33,645 nucleotides of DNA from Thalassobaculaceae bacterium (GTDB lineage: Bacteria > Pseudomonadota > Alphaproteobacteria > Thalassobaculales > Thalassobaculaceae), in contig JARGOG010000023.1 in the NCBI GenBank assembly GCA_029212785.1, positions 1 to 33,645 of the forward strand. The letters are read 5' to 3'. The first letter of the stretch is position 1; every line of letters begins with the position of its first letter. Positions 9,478-18,593 of the stretch are shown here, in pieces. The position numbers and the translations under genes are program-made. A model generated the notes under the pieces. It did not search any database. It was not told where the DNA came from and worked only from the letters and a program-made list of their open reading frames with translations.

Positions 9478-9564
9478 AGCTATGGACCCTTGAAATTCGG
9501 GTCCGCGGGCGCATTGTGGGTCGAATGCGGGCACGCGCATAAAGACCACCCGAGGGAGATTGAC

Positions 9565-10377
9565 ATGGCCATGCCACAGGCCACGACACCGGACACCGAC
9601 GCCCTGCCGATCCTGGTCCGCGAAGACAACGACGGGGTCGCGACCCTGACCCTGAACCGGCCGAAGCAGCGCAACGCCCTGTCCCGCGCGCTGATGGCCG
9701 CGCTGCTTCGGGAGCTGGAGGCGATCGGCGGAGACCGCTCGGTCCAGGTTGTCGTGCTCGCCGCCGCCGGCCCCGCCTTCTGTGCCGGCCACGACCTGAA
9801 GGAAGTGCGCGACAACGACGGCGAGCCGTTCTTCAAAGCGCTGTTCGAGCAATGCTCGGATCTGATGATGGCGATCAACCGCCTGCCGCAGATCGTCATC
9901 GCCAAGGTGCACGCCATGGCGACCGCGGCCGGCTGCCAGCTCGTCGCCGCCTGCGATCTCGCCGTCGCGTCCGACACCGCGAAATTCGCCACGCCCGGCG
10001 TGAATATCGGCCTGTTCTGCTCGACCCCGATGGTGGCGATCAGCCGGAATGTCGGGCGCAAGAAGATGATGGAGATGCTGGTCACCGGCGAGCCGCTGGA
10101 CGCCGCCACGGCCGAGGCCGCCGGGCTGCTGAACACGGTGGTGCCGGCAGAGGAACTGGATGCCGCCGTCGACGCGCTGGCGGCCAAGATCACCTCGAAA
10201 TCCCCGCTCACCCTCTCCATCGGCAAGGAGGCGTTCTACCGCCAGCTCGAGCAGCCGATGGAAGACGCCTATGCCTATGCCAGCGCGGTGATGACCCGCA
10301 ACATGCTCGCCCGCGACGCCCGCGAAGGCATCGACGCCTTCATCGAGAAGCGAACACCCGTCTGGAAGGGAGAATAA
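9565..10377 (+). CDS. Enoyl-CoA hydratase/isomerase family protein, ECHDC3-like
   Basis: Crotonase-fold protein of 270 residues. It closely resembles the ECHDC3 branch: AFCAGHDLKEVR (oxyanion-hole strand, 71-82), MATAAGCQLVAACDLAVAS (118-136) and FATPGVNIGLFCSTP (141-155). Both catalytic glutamates of classical hydratases appear replaced, by Gln125 (GCQL for GCEL) and Gly145 (TPGV for QPE), so ordinary hydration of enoyl-CoA is unlikely. ATG 9565 follows CGAGGGAG; an upstream in-frame start at 9490 is rejected. The CoA-binding/MetY gene begins only 5 bp after its stop, which suggests a joint operon with a role near acyl-CoA or sulfur metabolism. Confidence 0.88.
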   Translation: MAMPQATTPDTDALPILVREDNDGVATLTLNRPKQRNALSRALMAALLRELEAIGGDRSVQVVVLAAAGPAFCAGHDLKEVRDNDGEPFFKALFEQCSDLMMAINRLPQIVIAKVHAMATAAGCQLVAACDLAVASDTAKFATPGVNIGLFCSTPMVAISRNVGRKKMMEMLVTGEPLDAATAEAAGLLNTVVPAEELDAAVDALAAKITSKSPLTLSIGKEAFYRQLEQPMEDAYAYASAVMTRNMLARDAREGIDAFIEKRTPVWKGE

Positions 10378-10382
10378 ACCGC

Positions 10383-12221
10383 ATGGCCGACATCGATCCG
10401 AAGCGCGCGACCGACGCCCATGGTGGCCTCGTCTACGACGACGACGTGATCCGCGACATCCTGCGCGATGTGAAGACCATCGCCATGGTGGGTGCCAGCA
10501 CCAACTGGAACCGGCCCAGCTACTTCGCCATGAAGTATCTGCAGCAGAAGGGTTACCGCGTCTATCCGGTGAACCCGAAGGTGGCCGGTGCCGGTGGCGA
10601 GATCTTGGGCGAAAAGGTCTATGGCGACCTCGCCGAGTTGCCGGAGACCGTCGACATGGTCGACGTGTTCCGCAACTCCGCCGCCGCCGGACCGATCGCC
10701 GACGCCGCCATCGCCCATGGCGCCAAGGTGCTGTGGATGCAGCTTGGCGTGCGCAACGACGCGGCCGCCGGTCGGGCCGAGGCCGCCGGCCTGACCGTGG
10801 TCATGGACCGCTGCCCGAAGATCGAGTTCTCCCGCCTGTTCGGCGAGCTCGGCTGGCACGGCTTCAACAGCCGGGTGATCTCGTCCAAACGCCGCATCCC
10901 CGGCCGATCGGACCGGGTGTCGAAGCAGGATGGTGTCGGCGACGGTTTCATCCCCACCGGCTTCGAGACCATGGCGGTACATTCGGGTGCCGCCCCGGAC
11001 CCGACGACGGGTGCCCGCGGCACGCCGATCTATCAGACCACGGCCTATGTGTTCGACGACGCCGACCACGCCGCCTCCCTGTTCAACCTGCAGACCTTCG
11101 GCAACATCTACTCGCGCCTGTCCAACCCCACCGTCGCGGTGCTGGAGGAGCGGATCGCCGCCCTAGAAGGCGGACGCGGCACCACCTGCACCGCGTCCGG
11201 CCATTCCGCCCAGATGCTGGCCCTGTTCGCGCTGATGAGCCCGGGCGACCGGTTCGTCGCGTCGCGCCGGCTCTATGGCGGGTCGATCACCCAGTTCGGC
11301 CGCACCTTCCAGAAGTTCGACTGGCACTGCGACTTCGTCGATGCCGAGGATCTGGACGCGGTCCGCGCCGCCGCCACGCAGGACACGTGCAAGGCGATCT
11401 TCGCGGAATCCCTCGCCAATCCCGGCGGCGTGATCACCGACATCGCGGCACTCGCCCGCATTGCCGAAGAAGCCGGCGTGCCGCTGATCATCGACAACAC
11501 GATGGCCACGCCCTACCTCTGCCGGCCGTTCGAGCACGGCGCCGACCTGATCGTGCACTCCACCACCAAATTCCTGTCCGGCCACGGCAACGCCATGGGC
11601 GGGGCGGTGGTCGACAGCGGCACTTTCGACTGGTCGCAGAACGACAAGTTTCCGTCACTCGCCCAGCCGGAACCGGCCTATCACGGGCTGACCTTCTACG
11701 AGACCTTCGGCGACCTCGCCTTCACCACCTACGGCCATGCGGTCGGCCTGCGCGATCTGGGGCCGACCATGGCGCCGATGAACGCCTATCTGACCATCAC
11801 CGGCATCGAGACCCTGGCCCTGCGCATGGAACGCCACGTGGCCAACGCCCAGAAGGTGGCGGAATGGCTGGAGGCGCACGACAAGGTCGCCTGGGTCAGC
11901 TATGCGGGCCTGCCCGGCAACAAGTACAAGCAGCTCGCCGAACGCTACCTGCCCAAGGGAGCCGGGTCGGTCTTCACCTTCGGGGTCAAGGGCGGCTACG
12001 AGGCCGGCATGGCGGTGGTCGAGCGCTGCCGCCTGCTGTCGCACCTGGCCAATATCGGCGACACCCGCTCGCTGATCCTGCACCCGGCCAGCACCACCCA
12101 CCGCCAGCTCACCGAGGAGCAGCGGACGGCCGCCGGTGCGGGCGACGACGTCATCCGCCTCTCCATCGGCCTGGAAACAGCCGAGGACATCATCGCCGAC
12201 CTGGAGCGGGCGCTGGCCTGA
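10383..12221 (+). CDS. metY: Fusion of a CoA-binding (YccU-like) domain with O-acetylhomoserine sulfhydrylase
   Basis: A single 612-residue frame. Residues about 22-150 are a CoA-binding Rossmann domain of the YccU type: [45 protein letters not shown] and [10 protein letters not shown]. Residues about 190-612 are a complete PLP enzyme of the Cys/Met family: [21 protein letters not shown] (241-250), Asp371 in IIDNTMATP and Schiff-base Lys396 in [11 protein letters not shown]. This half matches O-acetylhomoserine aminocarboxypropyltransferase, making homocysteine from O-acetylhomoserine and sulfide. No stop or ATG separates the halves; the only possible internal starts are GTG 10875 and GTG 10917, the latter giving a MetY-sized 434-residue product, without a clear ribosome-binding site. 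GGAAGGGAG precedes ATG 10383. Confidence 0.9.
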
Positions 12222-12231
12222 GCAGCCTGCG

Positions 12232-12852
12232 TCAAGTCCGGTACGTCGCCACCTTGTAGGCGGCGACAGTGAAGAACACGCCGAGCGCGCCGTCGATCCA
12301 GCGCCGCGCCCGGCGGTAGAACCGAACCACCGGTCGGGTCGAGAAGGTCACCGCATAAGCCAGGTGACCGGCAAGCGACAGCAGCGTGGTCGCGGCGATC
12401 AGCGTCAGCCCCATCCACAGGGGTGCGTCGGCGCCGAGGCCGAGGCCGACGATCGCCACCCAATGCAGGGCCGCCTTCGGGTTGGTCATCTGGATGAGAA
12501 GGCCGTGGGCGTAGAGATTCCGCCCCCGGACGGCGGTCGGCCGAACCTCCGCGTCGGCGGTGGCGGCGGATCGGAAGGCCTTGTAGGCGAGCCAGAGCAG
12601 ATAGGCCGCGCCAAACACCTTCAGCACCGTGATGACCGCCGCATAGGTCGTGATCAAGGCGGTCAATCCCGCCACGGCCAGCGTCGCCCAGAGGCCCGAT
12701 CCGGTACCGACGCCGAGAGCAAGCCGCACGCCCTCGTCCCGTCCGCGCTCCATCGACGTGCCGATGATCGCCAGGATGTTCGGCCCGACGCTGACGAAGC
12801 CCAGGGCAAAGATGCCGAGGGCGAGGATGAGATTCGACAAATTTCCGTCCAT
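12232..12852 (-). CDS. LysE/RhtB-family amino-acid exporter
   Basis: Inner-membrane exporter of 206 residues with about six hydrophobic segments. The opening LILALGIFALGFVSVGPNILAIIG contains the conserved G-P-N turn of LysE/RhtB proteins, and GLLIQMTNPKAALHW holds the family NPKA motif. The C-terminal RRARRWIDGALGVFFTVAAYKV segment is also typical. The longer frame to 12969 is rejected: ATG 12852 has GGGAGG 5 bases upstream and begins at the first transmembrane helix. It converges on the metY gene with 10 bp between stops and diverges from the NIF3-like gene over 89 bp. The amino acid exported is unknown; context does not settle it. Confidence 0.87.
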   Translation of the reverse strand: MDGNLSNLILALGIFALGFVSVGPNILAIIGTSMERGRDEGVRLALGVGTGSGLWATLAVAGLTALITTYAAVITVLKVFGAAYLLWLAYKAFRSAATADAEVRPTAVRGRNLYAHGLLIQMTNPKAALHWVAIVGLGLGADAPLWMGLTLIAATTLLSLAGHLAYAVTFSTRPVVRFYRRARRWIDGALGVFFTVAAYKVATYRT

Positions 12853-12941
12853 GGAAGCCTCCCGGGTTTCGATGCCGTGCCATCGGTTGACATTATGCCA
12901 TGAAAAAGAACAAATAGAGAACAATATAATGGAGAGCATCC
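12853..12941. promoter_or_regulatory. AT-rich divergent promoter region between lysE-like and NIF3-like genes
   Basis: This 89-bp gap holds a sharp AT-rich tract (about 12887-12930). A consensus TTGACA lies at 12887-12892 on the plus strand but has only poor -10 matches at normal spacing. TATAAT at 12925-12930 is 32 bp further on and directly abuts the GGAGAG ribosome-binding site at 12931-12936. No leftward promoter stands out. Divergent transcription from here is expected from gene layout. Confidence 0.35.
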
Positions 12942-13400
12942 ATGGCAGATCTGTCGGAATACAAGGCACGCACCGGCCGCGTCATGCCGGTCTGGACCTT
13001 GGAGATCCAGACCCTGGCCGAGGATACCGACCGGATCCTTGACGCGGTGATGCAAGTGCACCCGCTCAGCTTTGGGCGGTATCAGCGCAATGCCAGCGTC
13101 TCGGCCGTCGGCAAGGAAACCGCTCAGCCGGAACCCGGCTCGACCACCACGACCCATGTGGCGGGATTCGAGGCCGGATCGACCGAGACCTATCCGATGG
13201 TCGAGCTGAAGATCTCGATCGAACGCGATCTCGCCGCCCTGGAGAAGGTGATGGATGCGATCATTGACGCCCATCACTACGAGGAACCGGTAATCTTCCT
13301 GCGCGAGGACTGGGCCAGCCGGGCCACCTACGACCCGACCAGCAACAACCCGAACCGCTGGTGGAACAACGGCAAGGGCCTGCCGGACCGGATCGACTGA
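12942..13400 (+). CDS. Small NIF3/YqfO-insert-like (CutA/PII-fold) protein
   Basis: A 152-residue cytosolic protein of uncertain function. The C-terminal half reads VELKISIERDLAALEKVMDAIIDAHHYEEPVIFL, resembling the HPYEEP-containing domain inserted in NIF3/YqfO proteins, which has a CutA/PII-like ferredoxin fold. The first half (VWTLEIQTLAEDTDRILDAVMQVHPLSFGRYQRN) fits the first beta-alpha-beta unit of that fold. No NIF3 metal-site domains are present, so it is a stand-alone insert-type module. The tail RWWNNGKGLPDRID is unlike the rest. GGAGAG precedes ATG 12942 at good spacing. It is flanked by an exporter and an amidase on the other strand, so context gives no role. Confidence 0.6.
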   Translation: MADLSEYKARTGRVMPVWTLEIQTLAEDTDRILDAVMQVHPLSFGRYQRNASVSAVGKETAQPEPGSTTTTHVAGFEAGSTETYPMVELKISIERDLAALEKVMDAIIDAHHYEEPVIFLREDWASRATYDPTSNNPNRWWNNGKGLPDRID

Positions 13401-16884: not shown

Positions 16885-17646
16885 CTAGCCGCCCCAGAGG
16901 CGCACCATGTAGACGACGCTCAGCACCAACCCGAAGATGACCACCAGCCACTTCAGGAGTCGCTCGTCGACCCGCCGGGCGTACCGCCCGCCGAGATAGC
17001 CTCCAGCGGCGCTCCCCGCCATCATCACGGCTGCCTCGGGCCAGGCGATCAGGCCGCCGACGCCGAAGACCAGAATGCTCAGCAGCGTGAAACTCGTGGC
17101 CAACAGGTTCTTCAGGCCGTTGGCGACATGGAACGAGGCGTAGCCCATGACCTGTACGATACCCAGCAGGATGATCCCGAGCCCGGCGCCGAAATAGCCG
17201 CCATAGATCGAGAGAACGAACAGCACGGCTAGAGACAGGGTCCGACTGGCATCCGCTCCCGCGGCCGACAGGAGCTTTCTGCGCAGACTGTCGCCGAACG
17301 CGAACAGCCCGGTGGCGAGCAGGATCAGAAACGGGATCAGGATCATGAAGAGTCCGGGATCCGACACCGTCAGCAGTCCGGCGCCGACCAGCGCGCCGGC
17401 GCCGGAGGTGACCAGCAGCGGCCAGATCGCCGGGCCGACCTCCCGCAGCTCCCGGCGATAGGCCGGCAAGGCGGCGGCGTTCGACGGAAGCAATGCGAGG
17501 TAATTCGTTGCGTTCGCAATAACCGGCGGCAACCCGACCGCCATAAGCGCCGGAAAAGTGAACAGCGTCGCGCCGCCCGCCACCGCATTCCAGGCACCGC
17601 CAAAGATGCCGATCACGAACAAGGACAATCCTGTTTCCAAGGGCAT
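16885..17646 (-). CDS. TauE/SafE-family sulfite exporter-like permease
   Basis: Inner-membrane protein of 253 residues with about eight hydrophobic segments. The first repeat FVIGIFGGAWNAVAGGATLFTFPALMAVGLPPVIANATN carries the G-G-x-x-N/G and P-x-x-A-N-A-T-N signatures of TauE/SafE proteins, and the second repeat IYGGYFGAGLGIILL with HVANGLKNLLAT mirrors it. Members move sulfite, sulfoacetate or other organosulfonates. The frame is open upstream to 17775, but ATG 17646 has AAGGAG at proper spacing and opens on the first helix. A LysR gene diverges 68 bp away and is the likely regulator. The cargo is not proven. Confidence 0.87.
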   Translation of the reverse strand: MPLETGLSLFVIGIFGGAWNAVAGGATLFTFPALMAVGLPPVIANATNYLALLPSNAAALPAYRRELREVGPAIWPLLVTSGAGALVGAGLLTVSDPGLFMILIPFLILLATGLFAFGDSLRRKLLSAAGADASRTLSLAVLFVLSIYGGYFGAGLGIILLGIVQVMGYASFHVANGLKNLLATSFTLLSILVFGVGGLIAWPEAAVMMAGSAAGGYLGGRYARRVDERLLKWLVVIFGLVLSVVYMVRLWGG

Positions 17647-17683
17647 ATGCACTCCTTCCATCCGGTGAGACGTCTGGGATAAT

Positions 17684-17713
17684 TCAAGAATTGAGTTCGA
17701 TAAAATGAATTGA
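17684..17713. promoter_or_regulatory. Candidate LysR operator between tauE-like and lysR-like genes
   Basis: The 68-bp divergent gap holds TCAA-gaa-TTGA (17684-17694), an inverted repeat. A second GAATTGA at 17707-17713 repeats the one at 17688-17694 with 19-bp spacing, close to two helical turns. This is the layout expected for a LysR-type dimer-of-dimers site. The assignment is inference from pattern and position. Confidence 0.35.
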
Positions 17714-17714
17714 T

Positions 17715-18593
17715 ATGAACTTTGGCATGCAGGAAATCGAACATACGGCTCCCAACAGCGACCATCTGCGGACATTCGTCGCGATCGCGGATTGCGGAAA
17801 TCTCACCCAGGCAGCGGCCCGGCTGAACCGCACGCAATCCGCCATCAGTGTCCAATTGAGAAAACTTGAAGACCGCCTGAACGTCACCCTGTTCGAGCGC
17901 CAGGCACGGGGCATGCGGCTCACCGCCAGTGGCGAGGTTCTGCTGCCCACCGCACGACGCGCCCTGGCGGAACTGGACAGAACGGCGCGCCTGTTCGCAA
18001 CGCCGCTCGCCGGACGGGTTCGCGTGGGTCTGCCCGACGATTTCGACGACACGGTTCTTGAAAGCACGCTGGCGATGTTCTCGGCACGCCACCCCGGCGT
18101 CGAGATCGTGGCCACCTCCGGGTGCACAGCGCGCTATCCCGATGCCGTCGCGAGGGCGGAACTGGATGTCGCCATCAGCTCCGGGCCGGATCGCAGGGAC
18201 GGAGACATCCTGAACTCGGAATCGACGGTCTGGGCCTGCGGACCGTCGCTGCACCTGGACGCCACGGCTCCGGTCCCGCTCGCCCTGCTGGACCGGAACT
18301 GCTGGTGGAGGGCCTTGGGGCCGGACGCCCTGGACGTCATCGGCCGTCGCTGGAAGGCCGTCTACAGATGCGGCAGTTTTTCCAGTCTTCGGGCGGCGGT
18401 GCGTGCCGGCCTCGCGGTCGCCCCGCTCCCGGCAGGCAGTGTCGAGACGGGTATGCGCATTCTGGGCGACGCCGACGGAATGCCGCCGCTGGCGACCGCG
18501 CACCGTGCAATTCTGGTCTCCGACAAAGCGCCGCCGGTTCTGGTGACGGCCATGGTCGATGCGCTCCGCGAAACGATGATCGCCAGGCAATAG
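17715..18593 (+). CDS. LysR-family transcriptional regulator
   Basis: LysR-type regulator of 292 residues. The N-terminal winged helix-turn-helix (about 15-75) reads HLRTFVAIADCGNLTQAAARL, then NRTQSAISVQLRKLEDRLNV and LFERQARGMRLTASGE, all canonical. The C-terminal co-inducer domain from about 100 (GRVRVGLPDDFDDTVLES) has the periplasmic-binding-protein-like fold; CGSFSSLRAAVRAGLAVAPLPAG is the usual hinge-proximal part. It diverges from the TauE gene, so it probably controls the TauE/MFS pair and itself. ATG 17715 abuts a repeat element; ATG 17727 is an alternative start. The effector is unknown. Confidence 0.92.
   Translation: MNFGMQEIEHTAPNSDHLRTFVAIADCGNLTQAAARLNRTQSAISVQLRKLEDRLNVTLFERQARGMRLTASGEVLLPTARRALAELDRTARLFATPLAGRVRVGLPDDFDDTVLESTLAMFSARHPGVEIVATSGCTARYPDAVARAELDVAISSGPDRRDGDILNSESTVWACGPSLHLDATAPVPLALLDRNCWWRALGPDALDVIGRRWKAVYRCGSFSSLRAAVRAGLAVAPLPAGSVETGMRILGDADGMPPLATAHRAILVSDKAPPVLVTAMVDALRETMIARQ

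Follow-up and report, generated by a model that had tools for sequence, protein, structure and literature searches.

A YccU-type CoA-binding domain fused in frame to O-acetylhomoserine sulfhydrylase in the Thalassobaculaceae, and the repeated origin of the fusion

Known MetY enzymes (TIGR01326; PRK05994/NF004650; 8sf5, 7kb0 and 2ctz) share a catalytic domain and PLP lysine with the protein described here, which differs from them by about 190 additional N-terminal residues made up of a CoA-binding domain, a tail and a linker. According to passages in two reports (PMC5069961, PMC6302742), MetY is able to use methanethiol. YccU-type, or CoA_binding_2, proteins (2duw; 2d59, PH1109; 1iuk, TT1466) have the whole Rossmann domain and the Cys motif in common with the fused protein, but the solved ones are stand-alone chains of 138–149 residues. 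A short stand-alone form that ends soon after the Cys motif marks the E. coli-like YccU subgroup, not the CoA_binding_2 domain family, and the fused protein lacks that trait. As late as 2024 E. coli yccU was described as uncharacterised, and a coevolution study predicts SdaB (L-serine dehydratase) as its partner (passages in PMC10933411), so caution is due over a MetY-specific role for the whole YccU family. No fusion of a CoA-binding domain to MetY, and no link between YccU and MetY, appeared among the papers listed in searches of the freely accessible literature. The domains were already known; their combination is new, and of interest chiefly because it arose more than once.

The window, meaning the whole stretch of DNA analysed, is 33 645 nucleotides of contig JARGOG010000023.1 (assembly GCA_029212785.1, Thalassobaculaceae bacterium). 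Its features of concern here, with the basis of each call, are as follows.

9490..10377, + strand: ECHDC3-like crotonase-fold gene, NF006008 (NCBIfam, structure matches, alignment)
10383..12221, + strand: fused gene, 612 aa, comprising CoA-binding domain, tail, linker and MetY (open frame, Pfam, NCBIfam)
10473..10829, + strand: CoA_binding_2 (YccU-type Rossmann) domain, residues 31–149, with Cys144 (Pfam, alignments)
10839..10895, + strand: conserved tail, residues 153–171 (alignment of 28 fused proteins, dN/dS)
10896..10958, + strand: variable in-frame linker, residues 172–192, containing GTG 10917 (Val179) (alignment, dN/dS)
10965..12218, + strand: MetY / O-acetylhomoserine sulfhydrylase domain, residues 195–612, PLP Lys396 with codon 11568–11570 (Pfam, NCBIfam, alignment)

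The fused gene runs from ATG 10383, preceded by an AAGGGAG stretch that resembles a ribosome-binding site by eye, to TGA 12219–12221, giving 612 codons with no internal stops. Both domains are full length in Pfam: CoA_binding_2 matches residues 31–149 with 140.3 bits against a cut-off of 22.8 (profile positions 1–115 of 116), and Cys_Met_Meta_PP covers residues 195–611, the full-length catalytic domain, with 417.5 bits (profile 1–380 of 381). The MetY part also exceeds the curated NCBIfam cut-offs of NF004650 (705.4 bits, cut-off 667) and TIGR01326 (593.6 bits, cut-off 495.1), NCBIfam naming it O-acetylhomoserine aminocarboxypropyltransferase. By these matches the C-terminal part is a complete MetY, predicted to act on O-acetylhomoserine and sulfide; the 50 matches listed by Foldseek were MetY-type and related PLP enzymes. 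Lys396, in an STTKF motif, is invariant in the alignment of 28/28 fused proteins, and we take it to be the PLP-carrying lysine. The N-terminal domain aligns over its full length with the solved 2d59 and 2duw, the latter a putative CoA-binding protein that matches the fused protein to residue 152 only and lacks the tail. All 28 fused proteins have Cys144, and so do the five solved chains aligned, in effect two proteins. The domain is a candidate CoA binder by homology, some homologues being named CoA-binding in the PDB. The first-pass annotation had described one continuous 612-residue frame holding two complete domains; frame, Pfam and NCBIfam agree with it, and its coordinates, Lys396 and linker are correct.

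It had also proposed looking in relatives for a conserved joint frame. The window's family offered 36 genomes for searching, to which the window's order adds none. The CoA-binding domain was matched at E ≤ 1e-15 in 28 of them, and in 28/28 of these the frame continues into MetY; 26 of the frames are complete, and two (G033 and G019) leave the contig end inside MetY. Since we scored as fused any pair in the same frame without a stop, in-frame linkers are partly a matter of definition, but the unbroken frame in every domain-bearing family genome is independent of it. Full-length identity to the window protein falls from 95% to 72%. The eight genomes with no domain match comprise five that are 62–77% complete, G013 (93% complete), G001 and G005. 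The last two, of 1.5 Mb, bear the same genus label as the 4.9-Mb window genome and have little of the fused protein in common with it, which is probably an oddity of labelling or placement. A sequencing error or frameshift is ruled out because the frame runs into MetY in all 28 domain-bearing family genomes; it is also kept in 17 further named loci.

CoA_binding_2 as such is common, with a Pfam match in some protein context in 11 of 14 control genomes. The window's own genome has three more matches (contigs C49, C132 and C151), which lie in open frames of 737–822 codons and, given these much longer frames, probably belong to other kinds of protein. It also has further MetY-type genes; one (C70, 77069–79304) is 45% identical, and a second MetA-type gene comes immediately after it, which suggests a separate MetY–MetA pair.

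Outside the family the two domains are often encoded by separate neighbouring genes. Among the unfused loci of the class search, the 28 closest (L067–L094) include 25 in which a separate metY follows on the same strand within 300 bp; another has metY 802 bp away, and the remaining two show none in the ~1.5 kb examined. The separate pairs of other Alphaproteobacteria keep the same gene order, mostly with the tail, but each partner has a start and a stop codon of its own. At locus L032 the two genes share a frame and a single stop codon lies between. The statement that these domains are known as neighbouring genes therefore holds for many Alphaproteobacteria. Relatives with two genes and an intergenic ribosome-binding site had been named as a sign against the fusion; they do exist in other families, but what they show is the ancestral state, separate adjacent genes from which the fused frame is derived, not an error.

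Fusions also occur beyond the family. The scan of named genomes gave at least 18 fused loci among the best 80 of 588; one of them (L202) is the same gene as in the family's G010, and the other 17 lie outside the family. Rhodopila globiformis DSM 161, Roseospira marina DSM 15113 and Paramagnetospirillum marisnigri SP-1 are among the members of a second fused clade. Among the matches listed we checked the large non-family open frames, G162, G370, G143, G071 and G122 (~600 or more) and seven of 410–539, and found two fused, G143 and G071 (L097 and L098). Altogether 47 distinct fusions were compared (28 family, two from other class genomes, 17 named).

In a concatenated FastTree tree of 145 rows, 45 of them fused, the fusion label needs three changes, two of which are forced by well-supported branches; this tree omits 13 short, duplicate or truncated rows as well as every locus with no metY inside 600 bp. 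A 64-row mixture-model tree needs two changes. The small group of G143 and G071 may represent a third origin, the larger tree giving at least three changes and the smaller two. Joining the two large fused groups as one clade gave −87 log-likelihood units in the AU test (p-AU 0.0023), and joining all fused rows cost 74 units (p 0.0068), the groups having been chosen after the first tree was seen. With a single fused clade thus rejected, the two genes must have been joined on at least two separate occasions.

Both tail and linker show selection. Six of the 19 tail positions are invariant in the 28 fused proteins and five more are at least 90% conserved. Pairwise dN/dS against eight relatives is 0–0.10 in the tail (19 codons), 0.05–0.20 in MetY, 0.15–0.30 in the CoA-binding domain and 0.18–0.80 in the linker (21 codons); single values for these two short segments are rough. 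The tail is at least as constrained as MetY, and the linker appears to be translated under loose constraint. Measured from a fixed landmark, linker length ranges over 16–43 residues in the 47 distinct fusions, and one linker (L019) contains an AKAG-type repeat.

The tail is likely a coupling element between the CoA-binding domain and MetY. Outside the family, tailed domains are fused to metY or lie within 300 bp of it in 110/156 cases and untailed ones in 8/42; tails could not be typed in L099 and L179, and the tail pattern missed one visible tail (L108). Relatives picked as untailed (L142–L181) end at most 22 residues after the Cys motif; they and a set of tailed loci (L182–L201) were picked by hand from the list and are not a random sample. 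Once phylogeny is allowed for, the association of tail and adjacency is not significant, there being three independent pairs only, so we do not take the tail as proof of MetY coupling: the raw counts are strong, but common descent can explain them. Moreover, 46 of the 156 tailed domains have no metY inside 300 bp, which counts against a MetY-dedicated tail; the tail may have some other role. In one family of the class (f23) the tails of CoA-binding proteins end in NTGIISSKL or a close variant, and no metY was present in the 6–6.5 kb examined at these loci (L184–L186, L190, L191, L194–L198); in G057 of this family the CoA-binding gene and metY are ~12 kb apart.

An AlphaFold2 monomer model built on an 80-row alignment has two mostly confident domains (mean pLDDT 83.5, pTM 0.76) and no confident contact or docking between the CoA-binding domain and MetY. 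pLDDT falls to 41–54 for residues 161–190 and to 47–59 for residues 201–250 inside MetY, the latter presumably a subunit-contact region. Channelling, which the first-pass annotation offered as an alternative to regulation, finds no backing in this model.

The stop codon of the upstream gene ends at 10377, five bases before the ATG of the fused gene, and the two are probably in the same operon. Its call as ECHDC3-like is borne out by NF006008 (417 bits, cut-off 313) and by its best solved matches, 3myb and 2vx2, which place it in the ECHDC3/crotonase superfamily; the gene is not part of the fusion. In the 295-aa reading from TTG 9490, Gln150 and Gly170 align where canonical hydratases have catalytic Glu; since both crotonase glutamates are replaced, its product probably does not act as a hydratase by the usual mechanism. 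DmdD-type methylthioacryloyl-CoA hydratase, unlike this protein, uses two catalytic glutamates (passages in PMC3660561). Among testable loci, an ECH gene is present no more than 300 bp upstream in 24/26 of the family, in 46/96 unfused neighbour pairs and in 0/18 non-family fusions. The first-pass annotation took this neighbour as support for a CoA link; it does adjoin the fused gene, but the lost glutamates and the absence from 18/18 non-family fusions weaken that support. In 17 of 75 non-family loci where no metY was found within 1 kb downstream, the CoA-binding gene likewise has an ECH gene no more than 300 bp before it, a second, MetY-independent neighbourhood link.

Elsewhere in the window, a LysE-type exporter gene on the − strand (12232–12969) is convergent with the fused gene; it scores 118 bits with TIGR00949 (homoserine/threonine efflux subfamily), below the cut-off of 184 bits. 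A TauE/SafE-type gene (sulfite exporter family) lies at 16885–17775, also on the − strand. Riboswitch control was considered and set aside: neither the window nor any of 17 named fused loci (all 18 except L231) gave an Rfam match above the gathering score.

Several readings of the fusion have to be weighed. That it is an artefact, through a missed stop or frameshift, or that MetY is made mainly from GTG 10917, is scarcely credible. The GTG is in frame within the linker, and a start codon with a Shine-Dalgarno-like motif of at least four bases precedes MetY in 80 of 106 separate pairs. Among fusions, however, the figure is just 3 of 47 (with scanned stretches of somewhat unequal length in the two sets), no Shine-Dalgarno-like motif was found before GTG 10917, and the frame persists in the family and in the named loci given above. 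The earlier suggestion that this GTG could yield a MetY-sized product thus finds no signal at the site, and a separate MetY product from the fused gene is predicted to be unlikely. The main rival to a regulatory module is a pure tether, in which proteins of a tight operon were joined and go on working separately, the CoA part keeping its own job, perhaps with the ECHDC3-like protein, and MetY staying as it was. The metY-less loci in which an ECH gene adjoins the CoA-binding gene are consistent with this, as are the linker, variable and of low confidence in the model, the single stop codon that separates the in-frame genes of L032, and the prediction of SdaB as partner of E. coli yccU. Against it, no domain-bearing family genome lacks the fusion, a second clade acquired it independently, and the tail next to the linker is under at least as much constraint as MetY. 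Adjacency to metY holds in 144 of 224 rows (a partly chosen sample) despite 25 changes on the domain tree. We consider the tether rather unlikely.

Two further readings turn on sulfur chemistry. The domain might, through Cys144, hold a CoA thiol, persulfide or disulfide near MetY and supply or protect the sulfur nucleophile, an idea to which the invariance of this residue in the fused proteins, its presence in the solved chains and the use of methanethiol by MetY lend something. It is improbable, for the Cys is common to untailed relatives mostly not beside metY, nothing puts Cys144 near a CoA thiol and the model has no docking. Very improbable is a methanethiol-capture route, with a DmdD-like crotonase releasing methanethiol from methylthio-acyl-CoA, the module holding or recycling CoA and MetY making methionine directly. 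The order ECHDC3, CoA domain, MetY in the family loci and unfused pairs counted above fits such a route, and Pelagibacter lacks dmdD, its enzyme for the last DMSP step being only hypothesised (PMC5069961). The release step is weakened because Gln150 and Gly170 replace the DmdD-type glutamates; in addition, no DmdD-named entry appeared among the matches listed (60 of 163 solved), and the 18 testable non-family fusions have no ECH gene in reach.

The reading we favour, which on balance seems somewhat better than even, is a single-chain MetY with a CoA-responsive regulatory or scaffolding module. The polypeptide would combine an ordinary PLP-dependent MetY with an N-terminal YccU-type module, a conserved 19-residue tail and a loose linker. 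The module would bind CoA or acyl-CoA and, via the tail, alter the activity or assembly of MetY, and homocysteine or methionine synthesis would then follow CoA status. We infer that the domain touches MetY and that CoA regulates it; the latter is plausible. A broader version, possible but doubtful, is that the tailed YccU subgroup as a whole is a MetY-dedicated CoA or acyl-CoA sensor, working in trans where the genes are separate and in cis where they are fused.

The acyl donor of the homoserine ester is a point against the regulatory-module reading: strong MetX matches are few in the family and MetA matches many. No family genome has MetX over the 500-bit cut-off, which speaks against MetX as the partner; this cut-off is strict, since none of the 14 controls reaches it either. 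MetX matches over 400 bits occur in 2/36 family genomes (G018 and G009; 466 and 472 bits), and the window's genome has a match of 121 bits that covers part of the model. MetA exceeds its cut-off in 28/36 family genomes, that of the window included.

Kept in one lineage and regained in another, the fusion points to MetY as the partner and to the tail as the element, and a joint so conserved and repeatedly gained suggests a role for the module in controlling or organising the assimilation of sulfur. Should MetY be tuned by CoA or acyl-CoA, this assimilation would be tied to CoA status at the enzyme level in a large bacterial class. CoA_binding_2-type domains are widespread, but E. coli yccU is called uncharacterised in PMC10933411; if the sensor reading is true, the orphan YccU family would gain a physiological role, and CoA state would be a direct allosteric input to methionine synthesis.
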